From: an uncultured Prevotella sp.
GTDB taxonomy: Bacteria; Bacteroidota; Bacteroidia; Bacteroidales; Bacteroidaceae
Reading direction: 5' to 3'
DNA: 64,000 bases
NCBI GenBank assembly: GCA_905235835.1
Contig: CAJONQ010000006.1
Location: 17,003 to 81,002 of the forward strand
In this document: positions 3,771 to 18,240 of the stretch, piece by piece
Numbering within the stretch: the first letter of the stretch is position 1
Layout of the letters: every line of letters begins with the position of its first letter
The notes under the pieces: generated by a model
The model's database searches: none
What the model was told of the DNA's origin: nothing
The model's input: the letters and a program-made list of their open reading frames with translations, nothing else
Position numbers and translations under genes: made by a program

Positions 3771-6584
3771 CTGCTTTGCCACAGTGACTGCGGAGTTGGC
3801 ATTATCACTGTAACCATCAGCACCTATCTCATCAGCAAAACCCTGAGTGACGGGGGCTCCGCCTACCATGACTTTCACTTGGTTGCGGATGCCTGCTGCC
3901 TCTAAGGCATCGATGACCTCCTTCATATAGCCCATCGTTGTGGTGAGCAAAGCACTCATACACAGGATATCTGGTTGATTCTCCTTGACAGCTTGGATGA
4001 AGGTGTCGGCAGAAACATCAATACCAATATTGACCACCTCGAAGCCACAGCCTTCCAACATAGAGGCTACCAGGTTCTTGCCAATGTCGTGCAGGTCGCC
4101 TTTAACAGTACCGATGACCACCTTGCCTAATGAGGTACTTGCAGTACCAGCCATCATCGGTTTCAAAATTTCCAAGGCTGCCTTCATCGCCCGTCCTGCC
4201 ATCAGCAACTGGGGAACAAACGCCTTTCCGTCCTGGAAACGCCTACCTACCTCACTCATAGCACGAATCATCTGACCGTTAATGAGGTCTTGTGGGGCTA
4301 TATTCTGGTCAATAGCCTCTCGTGTCGCAGTGGCGGCATCATTGCTCTTACCTTCGAGGATGGCGTTATAAAGGCGTTCTTCTGGGGAGGGGACAACTTC
4401 ACTAGGGGAACTAGTATGACTAGAAGAACTAGGAATACTAGATATACTAGAAGAACTAGGAATACTAGTTAATCCAGCACCTTCCCCTGGAATCAACGGA
4501 GAAAGGTATAATCCCTTAACTGGCTCTACGGCTTGTGCCATCAGACGGATATGGGCATCCGTCGTACCACAGCAGCCACCGATGATATTCAGACAGTGAT
4601 GCTCTAATAATTGCCATACATCAGCAAGCAGCTTCTCTGGTGTCTTGATATATTGCCCTTTCGCATCAGGCATGCCGGCATTGGGGTAGAGACTTACTTT
4701 CGTACCATATTGGGCAAGCTGGCAAACCAGTGGTGTCATCTTCTGTACGTCAGAGAGACAGTTGATACCGATAGAGAAGGGCTTGATGGTGAGTCCTTCC
4801 AAGAATTCGGGAATGCTCTGTCCCATCATATTATGTCCGTCAGGGGTAGAGACAGAGAAACTTAGCATAATAGGAAGATGAGGAGCAATATGCTGGGCTG
4901 CCTCAATAGCGATACGGGCATTCTCCACATCGAAGATGGTCTCTATGAGTAAGGCATCGACACCCCCTTCGGCAAGTGCTTTCATCTGTTCCTCATAGGC
5001 TTCGCTCAACACTTCCTTGGACAGGGGGACCCCAGAGGTGGCAACGGATGTGGTACGACTGGTCGGACCAATACTACCCACCACATATCGCGGTTTCTCT
5101 GGTGATGAATACTCCTCAGCAACCTCACGTGCTATTTGGGCAGCGGCAAGATTCATCTCACGGCAGTAGTCCTGCATACCGAAGTCACCCATGGAGATAC
5201 GTTGTGCGTTGAACGTATTGGTCTCGATGATGTCGGCTCCTGCCTCTAAGTATTTGCGATGAATATCCCGGACGATGAACGGACAGGTCAGTGACAGCAC
5301 GTCATTACAGCCTTTCAGGTCGTAATCATGATGGGCAAAACGTGCTCCGCGGAAATCCTCCTCACGTAATTGGTATTGTTGTATCATCGTACCCATGGCA
5401 CCATCGAGTACAAGGATACGGTCTGTGGGGAACTCAGCCTTGGACTGCTTAACGGGTTCTTCAGGTGACTCAACGAGACGGATAATCTCCCTTACCTCGT
5501 CATCCACCTCATCGTGGCTCTGGTATTCCTCAATGATACGCATCGCCTGTTCCACTTCTCGTTCGTTATGGAAATCCATCTCCAGATGGACACCGTCACC
5601 TCCGATATTGTCAAGCAGTGGACGTAACTCATCAAGGGTTACCCAGCATGCCATGATACTCTTGCCATGTGCAAGGATCTTCTTGTAGAGGTCATACCAT
5701 TTCGGACTACCTCCTTGTGGCTCACCAACACCAGGTGTCCATTGGATAGCATTCAGTTCCTTGATTTCCAGTAGGGCATCCAGATGGTGCATGGCTCCCA
5801 CGCCGTCCAAATGATAGAGGGTGTAGTCAATTTTCTGGCATTGCTCACGGATAAACGGCTGTACGAAGCGGCGATAATCGTCAACACTAATCATCGTGGA
5901 GATATCGCTTTGCAGTTTCGACATCTTGCCCGGAGCCCATGAGGAGAAATAGCAGAATGCCATCTCGTCGCCCTCACGGATAATATCGTAGAGCTCATCG
6001 AATACCAGGAAATAGATATCGTTAATCTGTTGCATCTGGTGTTCCAGCACCTCAGGTTGCATCACCGTGTCAAGGAGAACCTTATCAGTACCTTTGATGG
6101 CAGCGAGAACATCGAGTCCCTCCATCAGGTCAGGCATACCCACATAGTAATGTCCTTGTGCCTTCTGCTTACATGCCTTCAGTAATTCTTTATGCAGCAG
6201 GTAGTTCGGATGGTTGGGGTTGAAGACGATATCGTCTTTGTAGTTAGGGTCAGGATGAATCCAGATAGTATCCTCACCGCCCTCGAACACACCACCAAGG
6301 ATAGCGGCAAGCGAGCCAGGACCTAATTGGGTGTTGGCGACGGGTAACATGTCAGCCATCAGACTGGAATGTGCCACATACCAGTCCAGATACTCCGCAC
6401 GCCACTGGGGGTCAAACCATTTCTGGTTTAAGTCACGGGGTGCTGGTGGCATTGGAATATCCGCATGTGGCTTTACTCCCTCTTGGAAGTGCTCCCACAT
6501 ATTCAGGATAATCCCTTTGTGGTTCCACCAGTTGATGTATCGTTTCTTTGTTTCTTCTAGATTCGGTTTCCAAGTATTCATCAT
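3753..6584 (-). CDS. Three-domain fusion: UroD-like methyltransferase + homocysteine S-methyltransferase + B12-binding corrinoid domain
   Basis: 943 aa. N-term UroD-like (about 1-370); HMT domain 'ILVLDGAMGTMIQQYQL...GINCLSD...IIGGCCGTTDAHI' with Zn-cysteine motifs; C-term corrinoid domain 'GKVVIGTVKGDLHDIGKNLVASMLEGCGFEVVNIGIDV' (DxHxxG). No folate-binding domain. Ser-rich linker before the B12 domain. Confidence 0.88.
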   Translation of the reverse strand: MMNTWKPNLEETKKRYINWWNHKGIILNMWEHFQEGVKPHADIPMPPAPRDLNQKWFDPQWRAEYLDWYVAHSSLMADMLPVANTQLGPGSLAAILGGVFEGGEDTIWIHPDPNYKDDIVFNPNHPNYLLHKELLKACKQKAQGHYYVGMPDLMEGLDVLAAIKGTDKVLLDTVMQPEVLEHQMQQINDIYFLVFDELYDIIREGDEMAFCYFSSWAPGKMSKLQSDISTMISVDDYRRFVQPFIREQCQKIDYTLYHLDGVGAMHHLDALLEIKELNAIQWTPGVGEPQGGSPKWYDLYKKILAHGKSIMACWVTLDELRPLLDNIGGDGVHLEMDFHNEREVEQAMRIIEEYQSHDEVDDEVREIIRLVESPEEPVKQSKAEFPTDRILVLDGAMGTMIQQYQLREEDFRGARFAHHDYDLKGCNDVLSLTCPFIVRDIHRKYLEAGADIIETNTFNAQRISMGDFGMQDYCREMNLAAAQIAREVAEEYSSPEKPRYVVGSIGPTSRTTSVATSGVPLSKEVLSEAYEEQMKALAEGGVDALLIETIFDVENARIAIEAAQHIAPHLPIMLSFSVSTPDGHNMMGQSIPEFLEGLTIKPFSIGINCLSDVQKMTPLVCQLAQYGTKVSLYPNAGMPDAKGQYIKTPEKLLADVWQLLEHHCLNIIGGCCGTTDAHIRLMAQAVEPVKGLYLSPLIPGEGAGLTSIPSSSSISSIPSSSSHTSSPSEVVPSPEERLYNAILEGKSNDAATATREAIDQNIAPQDLINGQMIRAMSEVGRRFQDGKAFVPQLLMAGRAMKAALEILKPMMAGTASTSLGKVVIGTVKGDLHDIGKNLVASMLEGCGFEVVNIGIDVSADTFIQAVKENQPDILCMSALLTTTMGYMKEVIDALEAAGIRNQVKVMVGGAPVTQGFADEIGADGYSDNANSAVTVAKQLLGKL
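4402..4468. repeat. 9-bp tandem repeat with CTAG in every unit (8 units), coding for the Ser-rich interdomain linker
   Basis: CTAG starts at 4402, 4411, 4420, 4429, 4438, 4447, 4456, 4465, an exact 9-bp period. Encodes TSI-PSS-SSI-SSI-PSS-SSH-TSS-PSE on the minus strand. Confidence 0.95.
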
Positions 6585-6589
6585 ATATA

Positions 6590-9500
6590 TTATTTGTTGA
6601 TTTGTTCTTTTAAGGTATGTTGTCCCTCCCTGATGATCTTTGTCTGTCCACTATAAGGGAGTCGGACGGTTGCTTCCCGATGAATGGGAATCTCTGCGTT
6701 TAACACGAAAGTATCGCCCTCCAAATGCCAATCGACCTTGACATCGTCCATTTTCCCCCGGCACCAAGTGAGGTCACCTACGGGATGAGGTGCTATTGTA
6801 AGGTGTTCTCCCTCTCGCCAGATACCTAAGAAATAAGGTATAAGCAGGTTATTCAGATGTCCCATCATGAAATGATTCATAGAGGCACCGAACTCTGGGT
6901 TCCATTGTTCCGTCAGCGTAGTGTGTCCGAGTTTAATCTGATAGCCGTAACCAGGAACATCGTAATGGTTCAGCATCTTATAAAGCTGTTCCTGTTGTCC
7001 ATGATGGATAAGGGCGTTAAACAGATAGCGATTGCCAACGTCACCCGTTGTCAGACGGTCGCCATGGGCGTGAATATCGTTAATCAGTTGTTGTAATACA
7101 GCCTCACGGTCTCCTTCTGGTATGAGATCCATCTCAAGGGCTATGGCTTGTGCACACTGACTGCCTGTGGCATACTGGTGGGTAGCAGGATGGTAGAACT
7201 CCTTAATGAAGGCGGTCTTGATACTGTCGGCACGTGCTTCCTCCATTAAATGATTCCACCAATAGTAATGTGCTGTTGAAACAAGTGCCATAGGTGTGTT
7301 CTGGGCAAAGCCCGCACGCCCTGGTCCGTAGTCGTACCAGTCGCCCAGTCCCTGCCGAAGGATATAGCAAGAGTCCTGCGTTGCCAGATAATCTACATAG
7401 CGTTTCATCTGCGGACGATAGCGATGGATGAGTTTATCGTCGCCATAGAACGCTTGATAGAGGAACGGTAGGGCAATGAAAGCACCTCCCCATTCTGGTG
7501 ACTCCAAGAAGGGAGGAGCCCAAGAGCCCTCGAAAATAACGTAGTTGGGTGCTATCTCAGGTAAGGCGCCATTGGGATATTGCGCATCGGCGATGTTCTG
7601 CATGGTCTGTTCTATCATCGCCCGACAGTCGTAATTGGCTAAGAGTCCCTCACCATTCAGCCAGTCTTGTTCCAGCCATCCTAACTTCTCACGATGGGGA
7701 CAATCCGTCCATACTGACTGCCAGTTGGAGCGAATAGCACGGTCAATCAGGCGGTAAGCGTCATTAAAGAGAGGATTGGAACATTCAAAGTCACCAGTCT
7801 TCGAGGCGGAATTGTAGACGAAGCACGACTCGATGTTTTTCAATACGTCTAAATCCCCCTCTACTTGCAGATAGCGATAACCATAATATGAGAAGCGGGG
7901 ATGCCATGTCTCTTTTTCACCTTTTAATATATAAGTATAATCATGTGGACGACCTGTCTGCTTCTGATTGACCAGTTCCTCTTTGGTCAGTGTCTCACTG
8001 GGTGTCAGTCTCAGCCATTGTCCTCGTTTTCCTTGGACGGTAATTTCGGGGAATCCAGCAAGGTTCTGTCCCATATCGAGCACTAATACGGAGTCTTTCC
8101 TGACGGTATCCCTCACGGAATAGCGTTCCATGATCTTCACAGGTTTTGCTATCTGCTGGCGGAGGACACCCTTGGGTGCTTCCTGAATGACAACAGGATG
8201 CCAGTCTGTCGGGTTCTCTAATCGCGCATCATAGTCTTCACCTCCATAAATACTGTTGAAGGTGATAGGGGATAGTGCCCATTGCCATTGCTCATCGCTG
8301 ACGATATCCTCTGTCTTTCCGTCATCATACTCAATGTGCATACGGAATAATAAGGTGGGAGGACCGAACGATATCTTCATCTTGGCATAGCGAAGTCCCT
8401 GTTCGTTGTAGAAACCATTACCCAGAAGTACTTGGATGGTGTGATGGCTGATAGCTGATGGCAGATGGCTGATATAAGATGTGACATCGTATGTGTTATA
8501 AAAGATGCTCTTGTCATAGTCACTCCATAGTGGTGCAAAGCATGCGTCGCCCACCTTCTTTCCGTTGATGGAGAGTTCATAGAACCCTAATCCTACAATA
8601 GAGACGGTTGCCTTAAACACTTTCCCTTTGGGGCAGAACTCTTTCCGCAGCAGGATACTTCGTTGACTCAGTGTGTCCACCTTCTTCCATGCCTCTTTCA
8701 CCAAGGGCTCTTTCAACTTAGCACCAGTGTAGTTACGACCCTCCGGCAGGTGAGCGTCTTGACGGGTAATGGCACCAATCCACTTGGCATTCTGAGGCTC
8801 ATCTATATCATCCGAGTAATCAACCCCATCAATGTCATAAGTGATCTTACCATTTTTTATTTTCGCATCGACACAACGTTGTCCGGAGAGATATAGACGG
8901 AAGCGACAGTTCCACTCATGATTCCATGCAGGGAAGAGAATTGGATTGTGATCGAGGTCTTCCTGCAACAGCATCTCTTGCAGACCAATCATACCGGCTC
9001 CCCCTCTGTTATGGTCTGGAGCCCAGTCGAAACCAGGATCCCAGAAGGCAGGGAAACGATAGGGACCGTTGCCCAACTTCTCCGTATTCAGACGTATCGC
9101 CTCGTCAGTCATCCCTAAGCATGCAGCCCAGATATTGTCTTGTTTCCATCCTTTCGTACTACGCATTTCCTTGGCATGCGGATCTTTGAGATAGGTATTA
9201 CGGGCAATATCAAGGTGTGGTCGTCCCAATCCATAGATACGCCAAGGGAAGACAGGGTATAGTTGAGGTGTCTCCGTGTTCTGTATCCGTTCCCAACTAA
9301 CAGCAGGGGCTATACAGGTGTCACCGTCTATCACCTGGAGAGGAATCTCGGGAAGGGTAGAATCATCGCAACCTGTCTCGATAAGATAATCCTTTAATGC
9401 CTGCAGGGCAGCGACAGTACTGGAGGGATTGCGTGCCATCTTGTAGGTCTCACAGCCCGATCCAGGATAGATATCAAGGTTAGGGTAGTGGTTGGCGAAG

Positions 9501-10942
9501 AAACGCAGAGGCTCAGTGACGAGCACACGATATTTGTCCAGTGTGGAGTCAGGATACCATGGCAGCATATCGAGATACATCTTCCCAAACTCCAAGGCAG
9601 TGTCCCACTCATATTCCAACCATTTATTCTTCTCAACTCCCCAGTCGTCACCGTCCTTATGCTTACCATATTCTGCAGGATTGGGTAGTCCGAAGTTCTC
9701 TATCTGTTCACTGAAGCACGCACCGTCATGTCCCCAATGGTGGCGTGACCAAGCGATGGCATTGGGTAACATCCGAAGATAGGTGTCGAGTTGCGGCTTT
9801 AAGACCTCGTAATCACCACTCTTGAGCATGGGCCAATAGACAAGTCGTTGGTTCTGTGCCGTCATCGTACCGCCTCCCCATTTACGATAGTCTGGGGTGA
9901 AGGTCATGGTAGGGTCGACATAAACAGGGTCGAAGGTAAAGAGTCCGCCATTGAATTTCGTAGGCCATTCACCATAAGCGTTACATCCCAGCATATACCG
10001 CATCAGTTCGTAGTTGCGGATCATCTGTGTGACTTCTGGCAGTTGACAGTCGGTTTCTATAAAGCTCCGTTGCCAATACCCATGCCACCATGATGCGCTT
10101 CTATCCTTCGATGCAGCGGCACTGACAGGCGAAGTAGGCTCCTTACTAGCATACAACTGGATAGACACCACACACTTTTTCATCTTTTTCCGTTGGAAGT
10201 TCCAACTACGATAGTCCGTTGAGGCATATTTGCCATCAGTCGTTCCTATGAATGAGAAACCGTCAGCCTGCATGATGCCGCCCATTTTCAGGAGTCCAAT
10301 AGGGTTATAGAGGTTGTCTTTGATGGCATCCAGACGCTCACGGTTGACCGTGAAGTCGAACACCGTCTCTTTCCTGTTCTGGTGATAGAAGGCGAGACGA
10401 CTTTTCGAGGCATGGATACTATCAGCGAATGTCATGCAGTCCTTGGGGATAATCCACTTATAAGAGCACTGCTGGCACTCAGCCTTGGTGACCGGACGGT
10501 CCTGATATCGCCAACTCTCGTAACTGAGTGTCGCCTTTCTTGCCTGTGGCGATGACATATCCACAAACACAACGGGGGAATAGACATCCACCCACAACCT
10601 GATATCGACCTCTTTTCCTTTGATGTAAATGGCACCCTCATCGAGACACAGACGTTGCTCGAAGTGGTTATCCTCGAAAGGATTCCCTTCCAAATGCAGT
10701 CTCCAGCGTCCTGCCTTCAACAGCGTGTTGTTCTCATCAAACCATCCGCTTTGGGCGATATAGAAAAGCACATCCCCGTTCTCCACCCAGACATTCATGC
10801 CAATGTCATGACCTCCACACGGCATCGACTCGCTGGAGTTCCTGCTTGGGGTCTTCCATACGTAATCCTTTGGGGTATAGTCGGCGGTGTAGGTAAGCGT
10901 CGAGAACGCTAAGAAGAGGGAGAGAAGGATGCTTTTTTTCAT
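6590..10942 (-). CDS. Two-module glycosidase: N-terminal DUF5703/(alpha/alpha)6-type module + C-terminal GH78 alpha-L-rhamnosidase
   Basis: 1450 aa with signal peptide. N-term 'SESMPCGGHDIGMNVWVENGDVLFYIAQSGWFDENN'; C-term GH78-type 'SVWTDCPHREKLGWLEQDWL' and 'GYGYQIKLGHTTLTEQWN...SMNHFMMGHL'. Confidence 0.85.
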   Translation of the reverse strand: MKKSILLSLFLAFSTLTYTADYTPKDYVWKTPSRNSSESMPCGGHDIGMNVWVENGDVLFYIAQSGWFDENNTLLKAGRWRLHLEGNPFEDNHFEQRLCLDEGAIYIKGKEVDIRLWVDVYSPVVFVDMSSPQARKATLSYESWRYQDRPVTKAECQQCSYKWIIPKDCMTFADSIHASKSRLAFYHQNRKETVFDFTVNRERLDAIKDNLYNPIGLLKMGGIMQADGFSFIGTTDGKYASTDYRSWNFQRKKMKKCVVSIQLYASKEPTSPVSAAASKDRSASWWHGYWQRSFIETDCQLPEVTQMIRNYELMRYMLGCNAYGEWPTKFNGGLFTFDPVYVDPTMTFTPDYRKWGGGTMTAQNQRLVYWPMLKSGDYEVLKPQLDTYLRMLPNAIAWSRHHWGHDGACFSEQIENFGLPNPAEYGKHKDGDDWGVEKNKWLEYEWDTALEFGKMYLDMLPWYPDSTLDKYRVLVTEPLRFFANHYPNLDIYPGSGCETYKMARNPSSTVAALQALKDYLIETGCDDSTLPEIPLQVIDGDTCIAPAVSWERIQNTETPQLYPVFPWRIYGLGRPHLDIARNTYLKDPHAKEMRSTKGWKQDNIWAACLGMTDEAIRLNTEKLGNGPYRFPAFWDPGFDWAPDHNRGGAGMIGLQEMLLQEDLDHNPILFPAWNHEWNCRFRLYLSGQRCVDAKIKNGKITYDIDGVDYSDDIDEPQNAKWIGAITRQDAHLPEGRNYTGAKLKEPLVKEAWKKVDTLSQRSILLRKEFCPKGKVFKATVSIVGLGFYELSINGKKVGDACFAPLWSDYDKSIFYNTYDVTSYISHLPSAISHHTIQVLLGNGFYNEQGLRYAKMKISFGPPTLLFRMHIEYDDGKTEDIVSDEQWQWALSPITFNSIYGGEDYDARLENPTDWHPVVIQEAPKGVLRQQIAKPVKIMERYSVRDTVRKDSVLVLDMGQNLAGFPEITVQGKRGQWLRLTPSETLTKEELVNQKQTGRPHDYTYILKGEKETWHPRFSYYGYRYLQVEGDLDVLKNIESCFVYNSASKTGDFECSNPLFNDAYRLIDRAIRSNWQSVWTDCPHREKLGWLEQDWLNGEGLLANYDCRAMIEQTMQNIADAQYPNGALPEIAPNYVIFEGSWAPPFLESPEWGGAFIALPFLYQAFYGDDKLIHRYRPQMKRYVDYLATQDSCYILRQGLGDWYDYGPGRAGFAQNTPMALVSTAHYYWWNHLMEEARADSIKTAFIKEFYHPATHQYATGSQCAQAIALEMDLIPEGDREAVLQQLINDIHAHGDRLTTGDVGNRYLFNALIHHGQQEQLYKMLNHYDVPGYGYQIKLGHTTLTEQWNPEFGASMNHFMMGHLNNLLIPYFLGIWREGEHLTIAPHPVGDLTWCRGKMDDVKVDWHLEGDTFVLNAEIPIHREATVRLPYSGQTKIIREGQHTLKEQINK
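8440..8474. repeat. In-frame imperfect GATGGCTGAT-type tandem repeat within the GH78 module
   Basis: 'tgtgatggctgatagctgatggcagatggctgata' encodes 'ISHLPSAISHHTI' in the minus-strand GH78 frame. Confidence 0.7.
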
Positions 10943-10947
10943 ATAGT

Positions 10948-12354
10948 TTACCAGTTATCAGTACGGAAAGAGGAGACAGGAAGACCGTCATGCATCAGGT
11001 CACCGTCAGCCCAGTCTTTAAAGGCATAACGGATGGCGACGGGTTGCTTGACGGCATCACAGGTGACATAGACTCGATTGCGTGACACCCATACCTTAGT
11101 GGCTGGGTGGAACACCTTATCCGCACCTGCCACCTCGAAGTTATTGGACGTGGTTCCATGCTCAAAATATACCCATTCCTTGGAGCGGTCGAAGGCGATA
11201 ACCGCTGTATCGTTCTCGAAAGTCACTTCCTTATAGGTGGCAAACTCAGGTAATCCTTTGACATCGTAAGTATTGGCAAGGGCGAGAAGGGCAAGTCGCT
11301 CACCAGCCTGACGTTTCTTACGAGGATGAATACCATACTCCAAACCAGCATCCATCAGTACTGCCATGCGGGCATTGGGAATCATCGTCTCTGCCTTTGC
11401 CTGTTGTTCACGCAGATACTGACTGTCTTTCCAGTCAATCAAAGAGTAGTCGTAAGGAGCTATCTGACAATAATAGAATGGGAAGTCACCTTGTTTCCAC
11501 TCACTGCGCCATCCCTCTACCATTGTTTTCAACAGGGTAGCATAGTAGTCGTAACGGGGTACATTGTCTTCTCCCTGGTACCAGATGGCACCTTTCATGG
11601 TGTAACCGATGAGGGGATACAACTGACCGTTATAAAGAGCGGTAGGACAGCGTTGCTGGAGTTTCGAGACATCTCCTACCGTGATGGTCTGTTTTACTTT
11701 CGGGAAGGCACGCAACCAGTCGGCTTTCATCCATGCCTCACAGGCAGAACCGCCCCATGCCGTCACGATCAATCCGATGGGAACGTCCAAAGTAGAACGC
11801 AGGGCACGACCGAAATAGTAGGCTGTTGCCGAGAAGTCACGGACACTGGCACTGTTTGCCTCGTTCCATTGTCCTGCCACATTGTATTTGGGAGTCAGTG
11901 ACACATGGCGCTTGACGGTGAATAGTCGCAGTTGGGAGTCTTTACAACGCAACAACTCCTCCGTCGTTCCTTCAACGGGTTGTTGCTTGAATCCCTTCAT
12001 CTGCATCTCCATATTCGACTGTCCAGCACAGATCCATACCTCGCCGATAAGGATATTACGCAGGGTAAGTGGCTTACCGTCGTCGAAGGTAATCTCATAC
12101 GGTCCACCAGCCTGAGGTGTCAGAATCTTCACCTCAAACCGCCCGTTCTTGTCTGTCTTTACCTGATAACTCCTCTGATTCCATGAGGTCGTGATCTTCA
12201 CCGTCTTATCTTTATCGGCTGTTCCCCATAGGTTACACTCTGTTTGCTGCTGCAACACCATGTTGTCGCTGAAGAAATTCGGGAGCCTAACCTCCGCAAA
12301 GGAAGTGCTTAGCGATAATAAACACGTGATCAAAAAGAATGTGATGCGTCTCAT
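10948..12354 (-). CDS. Sialate O-acetylesterase-like SGNH carbohydrate esterase
   Basis: 468 aa, signal peptide, 'LIGEVWICAGQSNMEMQMKGF', 'GLIVTAWGGSACEAWM', 'GAIWYQGEDNV'. Confidence 0.88.
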   Translation of the reverse strand: MRRITFFLITCLLSLSTSFAEVRLPNFFSDNMVLQQQTECNLWGTADKDKTVKITTSWNQRSYQVKTDKNGRFEVKILTPQAGGPYEITFDDGKPLTLRNILIGEVWICAGQSNMEMQMKGFKQQPVEGTTEELLRCKDSQLRLFTVKRHVSLTPKYNVAGQWNEANSASVRDFSATAYYFGRALRSTLDVPIGLIVTAWGGSACEAWMKADWLRAFPKVKQTITVGDVSKLQQRCPTALYNGQLYPLIGYTMKGAIWYQGEDNVPRYDYYATLLKTMVEGWRSEWKQGDFPFYYCQIAPYDYSLIDWKDSQYLREQQAKAETMIPNARMAVLMDAGLEYGIHPRKKRQAGERLALLALANTYDVKGLPEFATYKEVTFENDTAVIAFDRSKEWVYFEHGTTSNNFEVAGADKVFHPATKVWVSRNRVYVTCDAVKQPVAIRYAFKDWADGDLMHDGLPVSSFRTDNW

Positions 12355-12355
12355 A

Positions 12356-15300
12356 TCATTGTTTTATGATTAATTCGGGTTGTGCTAACAGACCGGCAGG
12401 CAACAGGTTGTCACCCTTGGTGCGATACTTGGCATTCGTCCAGATACCTTCATAGGGAGCCTTCCCTTGGTCCATGCCGCGCAGGGCATTATGCCAAGTG
12501 TTGACGACCTCTATCTCTATCTTGTTCTTACCTTTCCTCAATGCCTTGGTCACCTCCACCTCATAAGGTGCTGTCCATGCGATACCACAGTCGATACCGT
12601 TCACCCAGACATGGGCAATGTCCCTGACATCAGGGAATTTGATCCATGCACGACCCTCAGGATGTTTTTTCATCTTCCATGTTGTCGTATACATCGCATG
12701 ACCGCTGAAGTAGCGGATACGTTCGTCTGGATGCTGACTCCAGTCGAACAACTGCTGGTTGTCGAGGGTGATGTTACTTTCTTTGAAGGTGACATGATAG
12801 GGGGTAGTAATTATTCCCGGCGTGGGAACTTTGGATTCCCGGCGTGGGAACTCTGGATTCCCAGCGTGGGAACTCTGGATTCCCAGCGTGGGAATAAATA
12901 AGGAACCATATGCGGGCATGGTGAAAGTTACTTTTGTCCTCCCATTCTCCTCGGTATAATCGACTTGCGTCACCTCATCTGTGACAGGATTATAGATATG
13001 CGGAATGTGTCCTGTACCACGGAATGACGCAGTAATCACTCGTTCTTTGTCCTCTTGATTGGCGAGGAAATAGATGTCTTGGTCGTCTGTCTGCCGATGG
13101 GCATAGGCGATACCTTCTGGTAGAATGACATCACGCTCAACGCCTTCTATCGTCTCTCCGTGCCAAGGCTTATCGATAATCGTAACACCTTGCTGGCGTA
13201 ATTGTTCTATTCGCTGTTGTACTTCCTTGGAGATGATGCATCCTTCAGGGATAACTAATACTTTGTAGTTAAAGGGTTGTGTCAGCAGAGCATCCTTATT
13301 CATCGAGTCATACTGGTAACCATGCAACGGGTTGATCCAGTCTTTCAGGTCTACAATACCAGCAGAATGGCGTACACCGACAGGTGACTCCTCCATCGGC
13401 TGTCCGATGTTGGCAAGGCGTTTCTGTTCGGAAGCGACACGCTCTGCACCAAAAAGTCCTGGTAGCATGGAGACTAAACGGTCTGGTGTCAGAGCACGGC
13501 TGGGTATCTCCTCACCAGTATAGACAGCGATATCCACCACGGGTGTACCTTTCTGCAGCAGGGTCTGACAACGGGTAATATAGTCAACCATTGCTTTTGC
13601 CTCAGGGAACCACGTCTGGTCGCGCTGGAAGAAGAGACCGATTCCGTCGAGGGTCATACCCGGTTTGCGGTCGAGCCACGGATTATGGGTGTTGACATGG
13701 AAGAACAAACGGTTCATGCCCAAGGCGAAGTTGCGGTCGAGTAGGGGTTTGATACTTGCGGGTGTCTCGTCCCATACACCACGGACCTCTGTGAATCCCT
13801 CAGCCTGAACGATTTGCTTGCCATAGACATGGGCACCACTGATGGCATCGAGCATGTCGTTGGGCTTGTCATGAGTAGGGGAGTTCAACCAGTATTCACC
13901 CATCGGTACATCTACATATTGATAGTGTTCCATACCGTCAGAGACCATGGTGGGAGCCACACTCTCAGATGATAGTTGTACACCGTACTCTTTCGCTTTC
14001 TGTGCTACAGTGACGAAGAATACCTCGTTGACCAGTTCATTGATGGTCTTGCGAATGTCCCTCAGTGTCTCATCACCCCCTTTCATAGGGATACCAGCAT
14101 AGATGGGTAAGAGGGGGATGATGTCATATCCCCTGCGACGTTGGAACTCCTGGGCGAAATTCTTGCTCCAGTTCTGCGAGCCACACTCCCAAGAGTCGAC
14201 ATGCAGGTATTGAATCGCCTGATGGTTGGGGCGGTTCATGAAGAGCCCGAACCAGTGATCCACCTGTTTCTCCACCGCTTCCTTTGAGAACTTATCGCAT
14301 TCCAGTCCCTTGGCACCACCTGCTGTGGCATTGGTATGACCTGTAGAGGTGTGTCCCATTCGCAGGATGCGCCACATACCTTTGGGTAAATCGATCTCCA
14401 CCATGTCACCATCCATCTTGGTATAGATGATGTCCTGTGGACGGAGATAGTCGTCAGCAGACAGTTCTTCCTTGGAAGTATCAGGGGCTATGCGCCATAC
14501 ATAACCAGCCTTTCCCTCCCAATTGTCGATGAGGGACCAACTGCCAAACTTGATATTCTTTAGTCTGAGGACGGGTTTCCATTTGGCGGCATCCAAATCC
14601 TCAGCACCATGTTCCGTACCTTCCGGCGTCCATTCAAAGCGGAAGTACTTGGCACGGGTGGGAGGAATACTGAATGTCGTATTGAAACCAGTGTTCTGCC
14701 ATCCCTGCCGAGGGGGCGTGAGTTGTTTGACAGCATAGAAAATCACACCGTCGTCAGAGGCTTTGACACTCAGTCGCTGGCATTGGAAATTCGTACCAGA
14801 GGGCTCTATCTCAATGTTCCGCACTAATGTGGAACGGTCGAACTCATACTGTATCCAACAAGGAGTGTCAGCACAATAGACCCCTTTCGCATTCACTGTT
14901 ACCTCTGGGGAATAGGAAACCTTGGGAATATCAGGGCTGTCTTGCTTGACTGGTATTGCATACACACCGATGTCCTCATAATAGTTCTCATAGTGTTGAG
15001 GCTTGGACATTCGGAAATGATGGAAGCCCCCATCCATGATTGTATCGCAGAAAACAATCTTCTGCATCGATTCCTCTGGTGTAATCCATGGACCGCCAGC
15101 CAATGCAAAGCCGTCACAGACATGAATACCCATTCCCAAGCCGAGGGAATCAGCTTGCACCAGGGCTAAGTCGACCATCTTCCAGAAGTTGTCACTCAGC
15201 GCATCGGCATTACCTTCATACTCTGGACGCTCCGCAGCTCCTCGTATCGGCATCAGGTAACAGCCTCCCAGTCCCACCTCTTTCATTGCCTGCAGGTCAG

Positions 15301-15427
15301 CCATGACCCCTTGTTCTGATACGGCTCCATACATCCAATACCAGAAAGTCCAGGGCTTGGTGGTGTCTTTTCCCTGCACTGACAGCGCAAGGCACAGGAC
15401 TATAACTGAGAGGATGATCTTTTTCAT
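12356..15427 (-). CDS. GH106 family alpha-L-rhamnosidase
   Basis: 1023 aa, signal peptide, N-term 'KPWTFWYWMYGAVSEQGVMADLQAMKEVGLGGCYLMPIRGA' typical of GH106; C-term beta-sandwich 'AWIKFPDVRDIAHVWVNGIDCGIAWTAPYEVEVT'. Confidence 0.9.
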   Translation of the reverse strand: MKKIILSVIVLCLALSVQGKDTTKPWTFWYWMYGAVSEQGVMADLQAMKEVGLGGCYLMPIRGAAERPEYEGNADALSDNFWKMVDLALVQADSLGLGMGIHVCDGFALAGGPWITPEESMQKIVFCDTIMDGGFHHFRMSKPQHYENYYEDIGVYAIPVKQDSPDIPKVSYSPEVTVNAKGVYCADTPCWIQYEFDRSTLVRNIEIEPSGTNFQCQRLSVKASDDGVIFYAVKQLTPPRQGWQNTGFNTTFSIPPTRAKYFRFEWTPEGTEHGAEDLDAAKWKPVLRLKNIKFGSWSLIDNWEGKAGYVWRIAPDTSKEELSADDYLRPQDIIYTKMDGDMVEIDLPKGMWRILRMGHTSTGHTNATAGGAKGLECDKFSKEAVEKQVDHWFGLFMNRPNHQAIQYLHVDSWECGSQNWSKNFAQEFQRRRGYDIIPLLPIYAGIPMKGGDETLRDIRKTINELVNEVFFVTVAQKAKEYGVQLSSESVAPTMVSDGMEHYQYVDVPMGEYWLNSPTHDKPNDMLDAISGAHVYGKQIVQAEGFTEVRGVWDETPASIKPLLDRNFALGMNRLFFHVNTHNPWLDRKPGMTLDGIGLFFQRDQTWFPEAKAMVDYITRCQTLLQKGTPVVDIAVYTGEEIPSRALTPDRLVSMLPGLFGAERVASEQKRLANIGQPMEESPVGVRHSAGIVDLKDWINPLHGYQYDSMNKDALLTQPFNYKVLVIPEGCIISKEVQQRIEQLRQQGVTIIDKPWHGETIEGVERDVILPEGIAYAHRQTDDQDIYFLANQEDKERVITASFRGTGHIPHIYNPVTDEVTQVDYTEENGRTKVTFTMPAYGSLFIPTLGIQSSHAGNPEFPRRESKVPTPGIITTPYHVTFKESNITLDNQQLFDWSQHPDERIRYFSGHAMYTTTWKMKKHPEGRAWIKFPDVRDIAHVWVNGIDCGIAWTAPYEVEVTKALRKGKNKIEIEVVNTWHNALRGMDQGKAPYEGIWTNAKYRTKGDNLLPAGLLAQPELIIKQ
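12813..12897. repeat. 22-bp tandem repeat, 4 units, each with an ATTCCC[GA]GCGTGGGAA palindromic core, inside the GH106 ORF
   Basis: Units start at 12813, 12835, 12857 and 12879 (last partial). Read in frame as IPTLGIQSSHAGNPEFPRRESKVPTPGI. Confidence 0.95.
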
Positions 15428-18240
15428 TCGAATTGGAGAATTACATTGATGGAGCCTTTACCTTGTGACCAGTAGGGTTGTGCCGAAGGACCATTCAGGT
15501 CTGTCGTATTCACCTTATTACGTACGGCAGGAATCACCTTCAATAAAGCGATGCCAGTCTCTGGTAATGTGTAGAGCAGATGGTCACGACCGTCACGTGG
15601 AGTATAGACTCCCACATAACAATTGTTAGGATGGATAATTCCAATCTTACCTTCTGTTGTCTCTATTTGCATCCAATCGACATCAGCGAAATAGCCTTTA
15701 AACTCAGGATACTCGAAAGACTCCCCAGGAATAGGGTCGTTATAGTTCGTCTGCCAATACCCGTACTGGGGACCTTCCAAGCGGTTCTGCCATACACGAT
15801 ATGGACCACGTCCTACCCATTGCTTGCTCTTTACCTGTTGTTCGGGATAGTCAAAGCAAATACCCATCAGATCAACAACACCGTTGAAGTTGTAGTAGAC
15901 CTCCATCATGACTGTACCATCTGTGTGGAAGTCCCAACGCACTAATTCCAATGAGCCGTGACGATAGTTTGCTGAAAGCACACCACCATCGAAATCGAAA
16001 CCAGTAAAACAACCTTGGTCAGCATATTCTGTGTATTCGGTCTTCTTGCTAAAGGCTTCCTTGTCATCGTGGTTATAAAAGCCATCTTGGCTGCGATCGC
16101 TTCGTTTGGCAGCTACAAAACGAGGACCATGATTCAGCTTAATGCTCTTGCTGCCTATAGTTACCTGCTGCAAACTTCCGTCTTTTTTAGAAAACGAATA
16201 AGTACGACCTGCCACACTTATGGTCACATGGTCGGCAGTTTCGTTCTTAACGACGCTGTTGATGTCAGTGGGATGCTCGGTAATATACGACGAAGTTTTG
16301 AAATTCCATGTATAAATATCCTCCCCATTAGGGTCGGTTGCTGTTATTTGTAATGCGCTTCCACTGCCTTTAGGTAAATCAATGGTTTTCGAAGCAAATG
16401 GCTCTACGCTGCCTACACTAAGTATTCCTTGGCTTAAAGTCTTTACGGAAGACTGCCCGTAAGCAGGCATCTGAAGATGCTTATAGGTAAACTTGCAGTC
16501 TTTTAAATCAGTGAAGTTATAGTGGTTACTGATGACTAACTGTGAGTTGTCAATGACTATCTGTACGGGGCTCCATACCTCACGGATGGTATAGAACGAG
16601 CCTTCCTTCTCCATGTGCGGTCCGACGATACCGTCAGAACCGAAGTTACCCATACAGTCTACGATGTTATTCATATCCGTACGTACCACTCCTTGGTCCA
16701 TCAGGTCCCAAAGGAAACCACCGGCACAACGGGGATTCGACATCATCAGTTTCCAGTAGTCAGCCAGTCCGGCACCATGTCCACCTTCATACAGACCATG
16801 CAGGAACTCCGTAGGCATGAAGATCTCCTTCTGTCGCATATACTCTGCCGTCTCACCCCATGAGCGATAGTGCTTCGTCTCGAATCCGTTGCGGTTAGCC
16901 CATGGATAGAGTACCACACGCTGCTGTGGGTCAAACTTCGCAAAGTAAGGTTCTAACTCATAGTTGAAACCTCCCTCATTACCGTTGCTCCAGAAGATAA
17001 TACTGGGATGGTTGACATCACGGGTCACCATCTCCTCTACTAACTTGGAGCCGACGATGGTCTCATGAGCCCAGTGCCATCCAGGTAATTCACACTCCAC
17101 GTAAAGTCCTAATGAGTCACATGCCTCTAAGAACTCTGGGTCTGCGGGATAATGGGAGAGACGAACAGCATTCATGTTCATCGACTTGATGAGTTTGACA
17201 TCCTCGATGTTCTTTGTTTTTGACAGTGTACGACCTGTCTCTGGACGGAAAGAATGGCGGTTGGCACCTTTCACGATGACTTTCTTTCCATTGATAAAAA
17301 GACCATCTTCCTTGTCACCGGCATATTGATGACGATACTCAATGGTGCGGAAACCGAACTTCTGACGCTCAATATGTAAAGTCTTGCCCTGTGCGTCTTT
17401 CAGTGTAAAAACAGCCGTATAGAGATGAGGCTGCTCGGCATTCCATAGTAACGGGTTCTTCACCACGAAATCAACCAGTGCCTTGTCGCTGGCAACTGGA
17501 GAGTCAGTGCTTTGTGCTACCTTCGTTCCTTTTGCGTCAGTGACACTGACACTTACAGAACCGCCTGGCAAAGCACGATTCAAAAAGACATCAGCCATAA
17601 ACCGTCCATCAGCCTTGGCATTGATGGCTACACGGTTGATGTTCTGGGCTGGTTTGGAAATGACAAAGACAGGGCGCCAGATACCTCCAAAGTTCCAGTA
17701 GTCAGCACGACGCTCTGCAAGGTTGACCTGTGGCACAGTACTCTCTTTCAGCACCTCTACCTCCAAGCGGTTCTTCTTTGCTCCGAAGAAGACACGGTCT
17801 GATACATCAATGGTATGGCGGGTAAAGCCTCCTTGATAGGTACCATTACCAGCCTTACGTCCGTTAATCTGGACACGGATTTCTGTAAAGGCAGCCTCAA
17901 AGACGAGCAGGATCTGTCGTCCTTGCCACTCCTGCGGCAGGGTGAACTCGTGTTTATACAGTCCCTTCTCGTCAGCGATTCCCTCAGGGGTTGCCTTGCC
18001 GTAGAACCGCATGCCATATTGATAAGTGCCGAAACCTTGCAGTTCCCAGCATGAGGGCACTCCTATCTTGGTCCATTCACCACTATGTCGCCCGTCAGTA
18101 CATTTGAAGTCCCATTGTACCATATCATCGCATCCAGTACCACTGAGGTACTGTCGATGTGTGTTCACGTCACCTGATTGTGCCCATGTCCAGAGACAAC
18201 TCATGGTCAATAGTCCTGTCGTCCATATCTTCTTTCTCAT
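15424..18240 (-). CDS. GH2 family beta-glycosidase (beta-galactosidase-like)
   Basis: 938 aa, signal peptide, 'GVPSCWELQGFGTYQYG', 'VIVKGANRHSFRPETGR', '[32 protein letters not shown]', '[14 protein letters not shown]', 'GGFLWDLMDQG'. Confidence 0.9.
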   Translation of the reverse strand: MRKKIWTTGLLTMSCLWTWAQSGDVNTHRQYLSGTGCDDMVQWDFKCTDGRHSGEWTKIGVPSCWELQGFGTYQYGMRFYGKATPEGIADEKGLYKHEFTLPQEWQGRQILLVFEAAFTEIRVQINGRKAGNGTYQGGFTRHTIDVSDRVFFGAKKNRLEVEVLKESTVPQVNLAERRADYWNFGGIWRPVFVISKPAQNINRVAINAKADGRFMADVFLNRALPGGSVSVSVTDAKGTKVAQSTDSPVASDKALVDFVVKNPLLWNAEQPHLYTAVFTLKDAQGKTLHIERQKFGFRTIEYRHQYAGDKEDGLFINGKKVIVKGANRHSFRPETGRTLSKTKNIEDVKLIKSMNMNAVRLSHYPADPEFLEACDSLGLYVECELPGWHWAHETIVGSKLVEEMVTRDVNHPSIIFWSNGNEGGFNYELEPYFAKFDPQQRVVLYPWANRNGFETKHYRSWGETAEYMRQKEIFMPTEFLHGLYEGGHGAGLADYWKLMMSNPRCAGGFLWDLMDQGVVRTDMNNIVDCMGNFGSDGIVGPHMEKEGSFYTIREVWSPVQIVIDNSQLVISNHYNFTDLKDCKFTYKHLQMPAYGQSSVKTLSQGILSVGSVEPFASKTIDLPKGSGSALQITATDPNGEDIYTWNFKTSSYITEHPTDINSVVKNETADHVTISVAGRTYSFSKKDGSLQQVTIGSKSIKLNHGPRFVAAKRSDRSQDGFYNHDDKEAFSKKTEYTEYADQGCFTGFDFDGGVLSANYRHGSLELVRWDFHTDGTVMMEVYYNFNGVVDLMGICFDYPEQQVKSKQWVGRGPYRVWQNRLEGPQYGYWQTNYNDPIPGESFEYPEFKGYFADVDWMQIETTEGKIGIIHPNNCYVGVYTPRDGRDHLLYTLPETGIALLKVIPAVRNKVNTTDLNGPSAQPYWSQGKGSINVILQFE

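Follow-up and report, generated by a model that had tools for sequence, protein, structure and literature searches.

Phased palindrome arrays of Prevotella, one of them in frame within a GH106 gene: a constrained repeat system and putative docking site for a dimeric protein

The sequence of a bacterial gene is generally taken to be under selection for the protein that it encodes. The locus described here raises the question of what is being conserved when a repeat whose copies fall into different reading frames lies inside an enzyme gene. In the window, by which we mean the whole stretch of 64,000 nucleotides analyzed from an uncultured Prevotella sp., a GH106 alpha-L-rhamnosidase gene carries four 15-bp palindromes of the form TTCCC-N5-GGGAA at 12814-12894, with centres exactly 22 bp apart (Table 1). 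The gene had been read beforehand from the sequence alone, and that sequence-only reading had described four copies with a 22-bp period, each translated in a different frame (IPTLGIQ/SSHAGNP/EFPRRES/KVPTPGI). Both points were confirmed, the first by the sequence and TRF (12813-12894, period 22, 3.7 copies, 96% matches, 0 indels) and the second by translation. The array lies in frame between the GH106 part (Glyco_hydro_106, PF17132, residues 21-649, E 3e-128) and a C-terminal GH2-type sugar-binding domain (PF22666/PF02837, residues 901-999). 15-mer searches allowing ≤3 mismatches gave 9 matches in the window against 2.3 expected, and 9 was reached in 0 of 100 shuffles; the array is therefore not a chance feature. 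It is the sole 22-bp palindromic triple of the window. The gene belongs to a rhamnan-type cluster (6590-18240) with a DUF5703-GH78 fusion, a SASA esterase and another large, putative GH2 gene. A 27-bp tandem repeat, ACTAGTATACTAGAAGAACTAGGAAT, was found by TRF at 4410-4469 and is unrelated to the 22-bp arrays.

Table 1. Positions of the palindrome units, spacers, linker peptide and host gene in the window
Feature	Position	Strand	Sequence or basis
Palindrome unit 1	12814..12828		TTCCCGGCGTGGGAA = TTCCC-GGCGT-GGGAA
Spacer 1	12829..12835		CTTTGGA, 7 bp, unconstrained (orthologous arrays: spacers diverge 23-55%, flank identity 70-90%)
Palindrome unit 2	12836..12850		TTCCCGGCGTGGGAA = TTCCC-GGCGT-GGGAA
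Spacer 2	12851..12857		CTCTGGA
Palindrome unit 3	12858..12872		TTCCCAGCGTGGGAA = TTCCC-AGCGT-GGGAA
Spacer 3	12873..12879		CTCTGGA
Palindrome unit 4	12880..12894		TTCCCAGCGTGGGAA = TTCCC-AGCGT-GGGAA
Array-encoded linker peptide IPTLGIQSSHAGNPEFPRRESKVPTPGI	12813..12895	-	ORF translation; other GH106 proteins have linkers unrelated to it
GH106 alpha-L-rhamnosidase gene, 1023 aa	12356..15427	-	ORF + Pfam

Arrays of this architecture are scattered by the hundreds. The 15-mer occurred in 33 of 200 genomes of the genus and an exact tandem pair in 51 of the 200, with a maximum of 80 pairs per genome, while the reversed control gave 0 matches. The exact TTCCC tandem pair was found in none of 294 other Bacteroidales genomes (183 other genera). 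A GTDB-wide scan returned at least 120 stretches, and among the matches listed almost all were rumen Prevotella. A plasmid search gave no match with arrays, and neither the motif nor a matching description was found in the open literature searched. Across loci of the genus the centre and the spacer vary, and TTCCC/GGGAA and the 22-bp period alone persist. The unit motif first proposed was right in being a palindromic repeat, but its variable G/A and T/C positions sit in the free centre and spacer, and the conserved element was refined to RTTCCCA-NNN-TGGGAAY. This is also the consensus unit of the genus (RTTCCCANNNTGGGAAY), with A/T-rich spacers that are 7 bp long in 309 of 317 cases; most arrays have three units (91/152) and a length of about 37-125 bp. 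A parent-genome search including intergenic copies, which the sequence-only reading had proposed, found the repeat dispersed: by pattern search the source genome contains one more TTCCC array (C19:199) and three related AGTTYC-type arrays (contigs C11, C13 and C22) within repeats of ~210-350 bp. The latter repeats (L038, L039, L040) are 90-93% similar and lie near contig ends, one adjoining a VapE gene and one near a tRNA. The period is shared by palindromes of other sequences. A scan for tandem palindromes of any sequence gave 192 triples at period 22 versus 0-10 at periods 18-21 and 23-26. Pattern-free 400-kb samples contained 4 period-22 triples in genome G094 (all TTCCC), 11 in G072 (8 AGTYCG, 3 TTCCC) and none in G024; no other period yielded more than one triple. 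Another large family, AGTYY-N9-RRACT, is scattered through 41 of the 200 genomes, and a CTGTG/CACAG family was sighted once.

How strongly the arms are held could be judged from GH106 orthologues, which were gathered by protein search and not by motif. Intact arrays are present in the window gene and in each of its four closest relatives, which are 83-90% identical. In pairwise sums, these five genes differ at 0/300 arm positions, 82/150 centre positions, 86/140 spacer positions and 218/600 nearby third-codon positions, and three near-independent comparisons of arms with third-codon positions gave a Fisher P of 4e-8. In a second GH106 group the corresponding counts were 3/180, 47/90, 35/84 and 160/360. 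Furthermore, in 85 orthologous pairs of equal layout, which share lineages and many of which were gathered with an exact-arm pattern that favours intact arms, arm differences came to 0.5, 0.4 and 0.8% where the flanks had diverged by a mean of 5.6, 14.9 and 23.6%; the corresponding ranges were 8-47% for centres and 8-55% for spacers. For GH106 and CobB the sets were assembled by protein search, and their arm comparison takes in array-bearing orthologues only. Copy number was unequal in 40 of 88 distant pairs. The arms were equally fixed in a set of mostly intergenic copies. Because the units of one array span three frames, arm conservation cannot be peptide selection. The arrays are a real, dispersed and strongly constrained repeat system, and on these alignments the arms are strongly constrained between species at the level of DNA and are not passively tolerated. 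The DNA of the array seems to be of greater importance than the encoded protein, probably as a protein docking site, and in the linkers of several enzymes a DNA signal appears to override the protein.

Among 118 placed arrays, for which genes were taken from a simple custom ORF scorer that possibly missed small genes, 26 lay in ORFs and 30, 45 and 17 in convergent, codirectional and divergent intergenic regions, respectively. Convergent regions were enriched (30/92 versus 52/368, P 1e-4), and convergent arrays were frequently ≤20 bp from both stop codons. The 26 ORF-internal arrays fall in nine unrelated protein groups. In-frame arrays recur in the same linker across species' orthologues of GH106, CobB, an acyltransferase, ABC-F, GH92 and a protein labelled methyltransferase by sequence reading only; the earlier suggestion that a protein linker tolerates the repeat thus extends to other linkers of other proteins of the genus. 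No Rfam ncRNA family was found at the arrays. The TAnnTTTG (-7) promoter motif was enriched facing away from them, as intergenic sites predict, and kept no fixed distance. Array copies also occur in prophages, and TTCCC arrays were found in 25 viral-contig stretches. Phage arrays often lie close to small hydrophobic ORFs of one class, either 43-56 bp upstream or within the ORF itself; these ORFs begin MQQLTLQFEGYA.., MKQAIQLEIPF.. or MQNVIQIG.. (Prevotella phage contigs L214, L216, L217, L219-L221, L224-L226, L228-L231, L234 and L235); three such ORFs tested had no PHROG match.

The explanation we prefer, and to which as a whole we give roughly an even chance, is that the window feature belongs to a superfamily of phased palindrome arrays, dispersed in genomes of this genus only, and that the arms are a putative site for a dimeric protein, kept by selection at the DNA level. 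Each unit is a two-fold symmetric site with half-site RTTCCCA, and the centres lie 22 bp, or two helical turns, apart and usually number three. A dimeric sequence-specific DNA-binding protein may recognize the arms and sit cooperatively on one helix face across at least three sites, and selection for its binding would maintain the arms even within genes. The arrays would have entered gene ends and linkers in the form of short units; afterwards, slippage may have altered copy number and template switching at the palindrome may have flipped the centres. Candidate roles are chromosome organisation, insulation or termination at gene ends, and mobility. In rumen Prevotella the arrays may organise or regulate the genome as a whole. 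The features expected of a dimeric-binding array were found, namely conserved half-sites, half-sites that vary independently, and phasing near a multiple of 10.5 bp, and the sequence pattern fits phased dimeric protein-binding sites, putative as these are. The possibility that the arrays form the regulon of a shared regulator was rejected, as 97 downstream proteins had no common DNA-binding family. Neighbour-gene analysis likewise gave no candidate array-binding protein or shared DNA-binding regulator, and with up to 271 pairs per genome the arrays are more suggestive of a repeat family than of a regulon.

The palindrome at a given place is exchanged between species. For example, the CobB linker holds, depending on the species, TTCCC/GGGAA, AGTCCG/CGGACT, AGTTTR, GTTTC/GAAAC, ACTTT/AAAGT or ATCCATTG arrays. 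Most of these families form a 120-bp linker with the first dyad centre at base 44 (shuffle P <0.005 each), and ACGAG/CTCGT arrays form a 108-bp linker with the centre at 42. The first centre is at base 44 in at least 13 species with six different palindromes, and most species retain the same 22-bp centres despite the difference in sequence. In further species the array is absent from the linker or the gene is split. Among the CobB loci L266-L282, some, for example L281 (G035) and L275 (G162), have two overlapping ORFs where others have a 66-bp array. Split CobB genes are shorter by 73 bp, so that arrays may fuse or separate two domains. On the CobB tree the palindrome families are interleaved and agree in close sisters only. 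Similarly, the GH106 linker holds TTCCC, GTTTC and CTCCA families whose translations match GH106 linkers. What might have passed for decayed TTCCC arrays in the GH106 genes of G095, G189 and G151 was rejected as such, these being other palindrome families (GTTTC/GAAAC, CTCCA/TGGAG) in the same place. Exchange means either that specificity changed at constant addresses or that different elements repeatedly entered one spot. Genome G179 has many TTCCC arrays yet an AGTCCG array in CobB, so a single specificity cannot explain all arrays. At two loci of G072 (L333, L334), the copies of a 218-bp repeat hardly differ except within the array, where centres and spacers are clearly different, indicating that array contents evolve faster than their surroundings. 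We tentatively suggest, as a possibility short of an even chance, that the chromosome has fixed addresses at gene ends and linkers, at which one DNA-binding protein or several, of changing specificity, read the palindromes phased at 22 bp: species would swap the palindrome sequence but keep the address, the dyad centres and the period, and the linkers would be written by DNA-binding needs. The arrays offer a test case for the co-evolution of palindromic repeats and binding factors.

The exchange of one palindrome for another in CobB and GH106 would also be expected if palindromy itself were selected, with the arrays forming nucleic-acid hairpins or cruciforms that serve as RNA structures at 3' ends, as bidirectional terminators, or as replication-fork or supercoiling elements. 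The enrichment in convergent regions agrees with this, and so does array folding, which beats shuffles as DNA (z -4.8) and as RNA (z -6.0). However, little or no covariation was seen beyond the fixed arms within one family or genome. The arm-flanking bases formed 173 Watson-Crick pairs versus 188.5 expected, A..C being nearly as common as A..T, and at the variable position 4/16 of the G072 family (271 pairs) there were 46 such pairs versus 45.0 expected; the TTCCC centre ends, mostly A..T, had a slight pair excess (366 versus 353). Half-sites thus vary independently within a family, and stem pairing is not the conserved thing. The arms of orthologues were unchanged, without compensatory drift, and the stems are merely 5-6 bp. 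Nested pairing of centres and spacers is avoided: complementarity across the array was below shuffles, for which a nested whole-array hairpin was rejected, and direct similarity was high (z 7-10), so that the units multiplied in tandem and not as nested hairpins. Together with the lack of covariation, this favours reading the unit as a symmetric site made up of two half-sites that are independent of each other. Against the half-site reading, and in favour of hairpins, the AGTYY arms do covary across lineages. Asymmetric centres in both orientations, as hairpin template switching would yield, suggest flips at a hairpin during replication. On balance we regard selection for palindromy itself as rather unlikely.

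Docking of a dimeric protein has also to be weighed against a selfish miniature element, of the Rickettsia palindromic element or BrickBuilt minisatellite kind, inserted by an unknown transposase and merely tolerated. Such an element would account for the uneven number of arrays, which runs from 0 to many tens in a genome, for the copies in prophages and phage contigs, for the multi-copy longer units around some G072 arrays (218 bp, 90%), and for in-frame copies only where the frame is preserved. However, the arms of orthologous, vertically inherited copies do not decay, no transposase family is linked to the copies, and the TTCCC family has no consistent terminal repeats outside the array. 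Flank consensus was weak: a symmetric CTCCGAG centred 22 bp outward in G072, and AGC..GCT at TTCCC arrays. Neither a target-site duplication nor a clean empty site was demonstrated at the arrays examined. We hold mere tolerance of a selfish element to be rather unlikely. A VapE/BT4734-type primase was considered as the agent and rejected: it adjoins arrays at 15 of ~120 loci, but its copy number is untied to them, some array genomes are without VapE, and only 4 of 30 VapE loci carry an array. BT4734/VapE primase-like genes frequently lie 190-410 bp downstream of an array that is accompanied by other iteron-like direct repeats, e.g. CCTCTACTAA (loci L122, L063, L069, L117, L105, L145 and L089).

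The sequence-only reading had likened the array to REP/BIME elements, and a true family of that kind, served by a REP-associated tyrosine transposase, is very improbable. The arrays are, like REP/BIME, short dispersed palindromes, clustered and lineage-specific in sequence. However, the search for the transposase that the same reading proposed for the parent genome was negative: Y1_Tnp/RAYT (PF01797) was not detected at E ≤0.001 in the source genome (G000) or in the TTCCC-rich G179, G094, G035 and G162, and across the genus it occurs in 110 of 200 genomes irrespective of arrays. REPs are defined by a GT(A/G)G head beside an imperfect palindrome of 20-40 bp (PMC2817692), and the arrays have no such head; they also differ in being tandem and not alternating modules, in their fixed 22-bp centre spacing and in their frequent in-frame coding copies. 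That the peptide is ancestral and selected, with the DNA repeat as its by-product, has next to no probability: about ten GH106 proteins of the genus share the in-frame array, but distant GH106 linkers are unrelated, the two array-bearing groups read the arms in different frames (IP.xG.. versus YSHAGN..), and the arms are as fixed in the mostly intergenic set. In the proposed alignment the array was absent from distant GH106 homologues, including the solved 5mqm, nor was its peptide seen there when looked for. Their linkers are of similar length, which indicates that the array substitutes for a linker and adds no domain. Of the in-frame insertion claimed earlier, with 66 bp preserving the frame, the frame held, but the linker is not simply 66 bp longer than in array-less homologues. 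In GH106 genes a layout of four units spans 81 bp, and one of five units, in which one spacer is shortened, spans 102 bp; both preserve the frame. The array of the window gene is an interchangeable interdomain linker.

Of the known systems named by the sequence-only reading, the one that the arrays resemble within genes is the Rickettsia palindromic elements, palindromic repeats of several sequence families that occur in frame in unrelated proteins (PMC10969869); for in-frame occurrence in unrelated protein genes the analogy is sound, and several sequence families exist here as well. However, those elements are about 150 bp, while the palindromes here are 15-19 bp, phased in 22-bp arrays and mostly intergenic; the DNA arms, not the peptide, are conserved between species, and the TTCCC type is confined to one genus (0/183 other Bacteroidales genera sampled). 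The BrickBuilt MITE of Porphyromonas gingivalis also comes from the Bacteroidales, and its tandem repeat, at 23 nt, is close in length to the present one, but the BrickBuilt repeats lack spacers, are bracketed by leader and tail segments with terminal inverted repeats and are always intergenic, and the word "palindrome" is absent from its description (PMC4596501). Borg aaTRs are fast-evolving tandem repeats within and outside genes (PMC9879509). In Borg ORFs the unit length is divisible by three, whereas here it is 22 bp and the copies are in different frames. In lambda OR/OL and the lambda ori iterons, palindromic sites for dimers follow one another at intervals of about two turns, three or four in a row, the iterons lying within the initiator gene. 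Two phage contigs resemble the latter, with TTCCC-type 22-bp arrays in frame inside lambda O-like/DnaD-like initiator genes (L212:1462-1498, L233:2429-2565), whereas the chromosomal arrays are at many unrelated loci with no neighbouring repressor or initiator gene. By analogy, the arrays would work like phased protein-docking sites, still putative, and within genes like Rickettsia palindromic elements.
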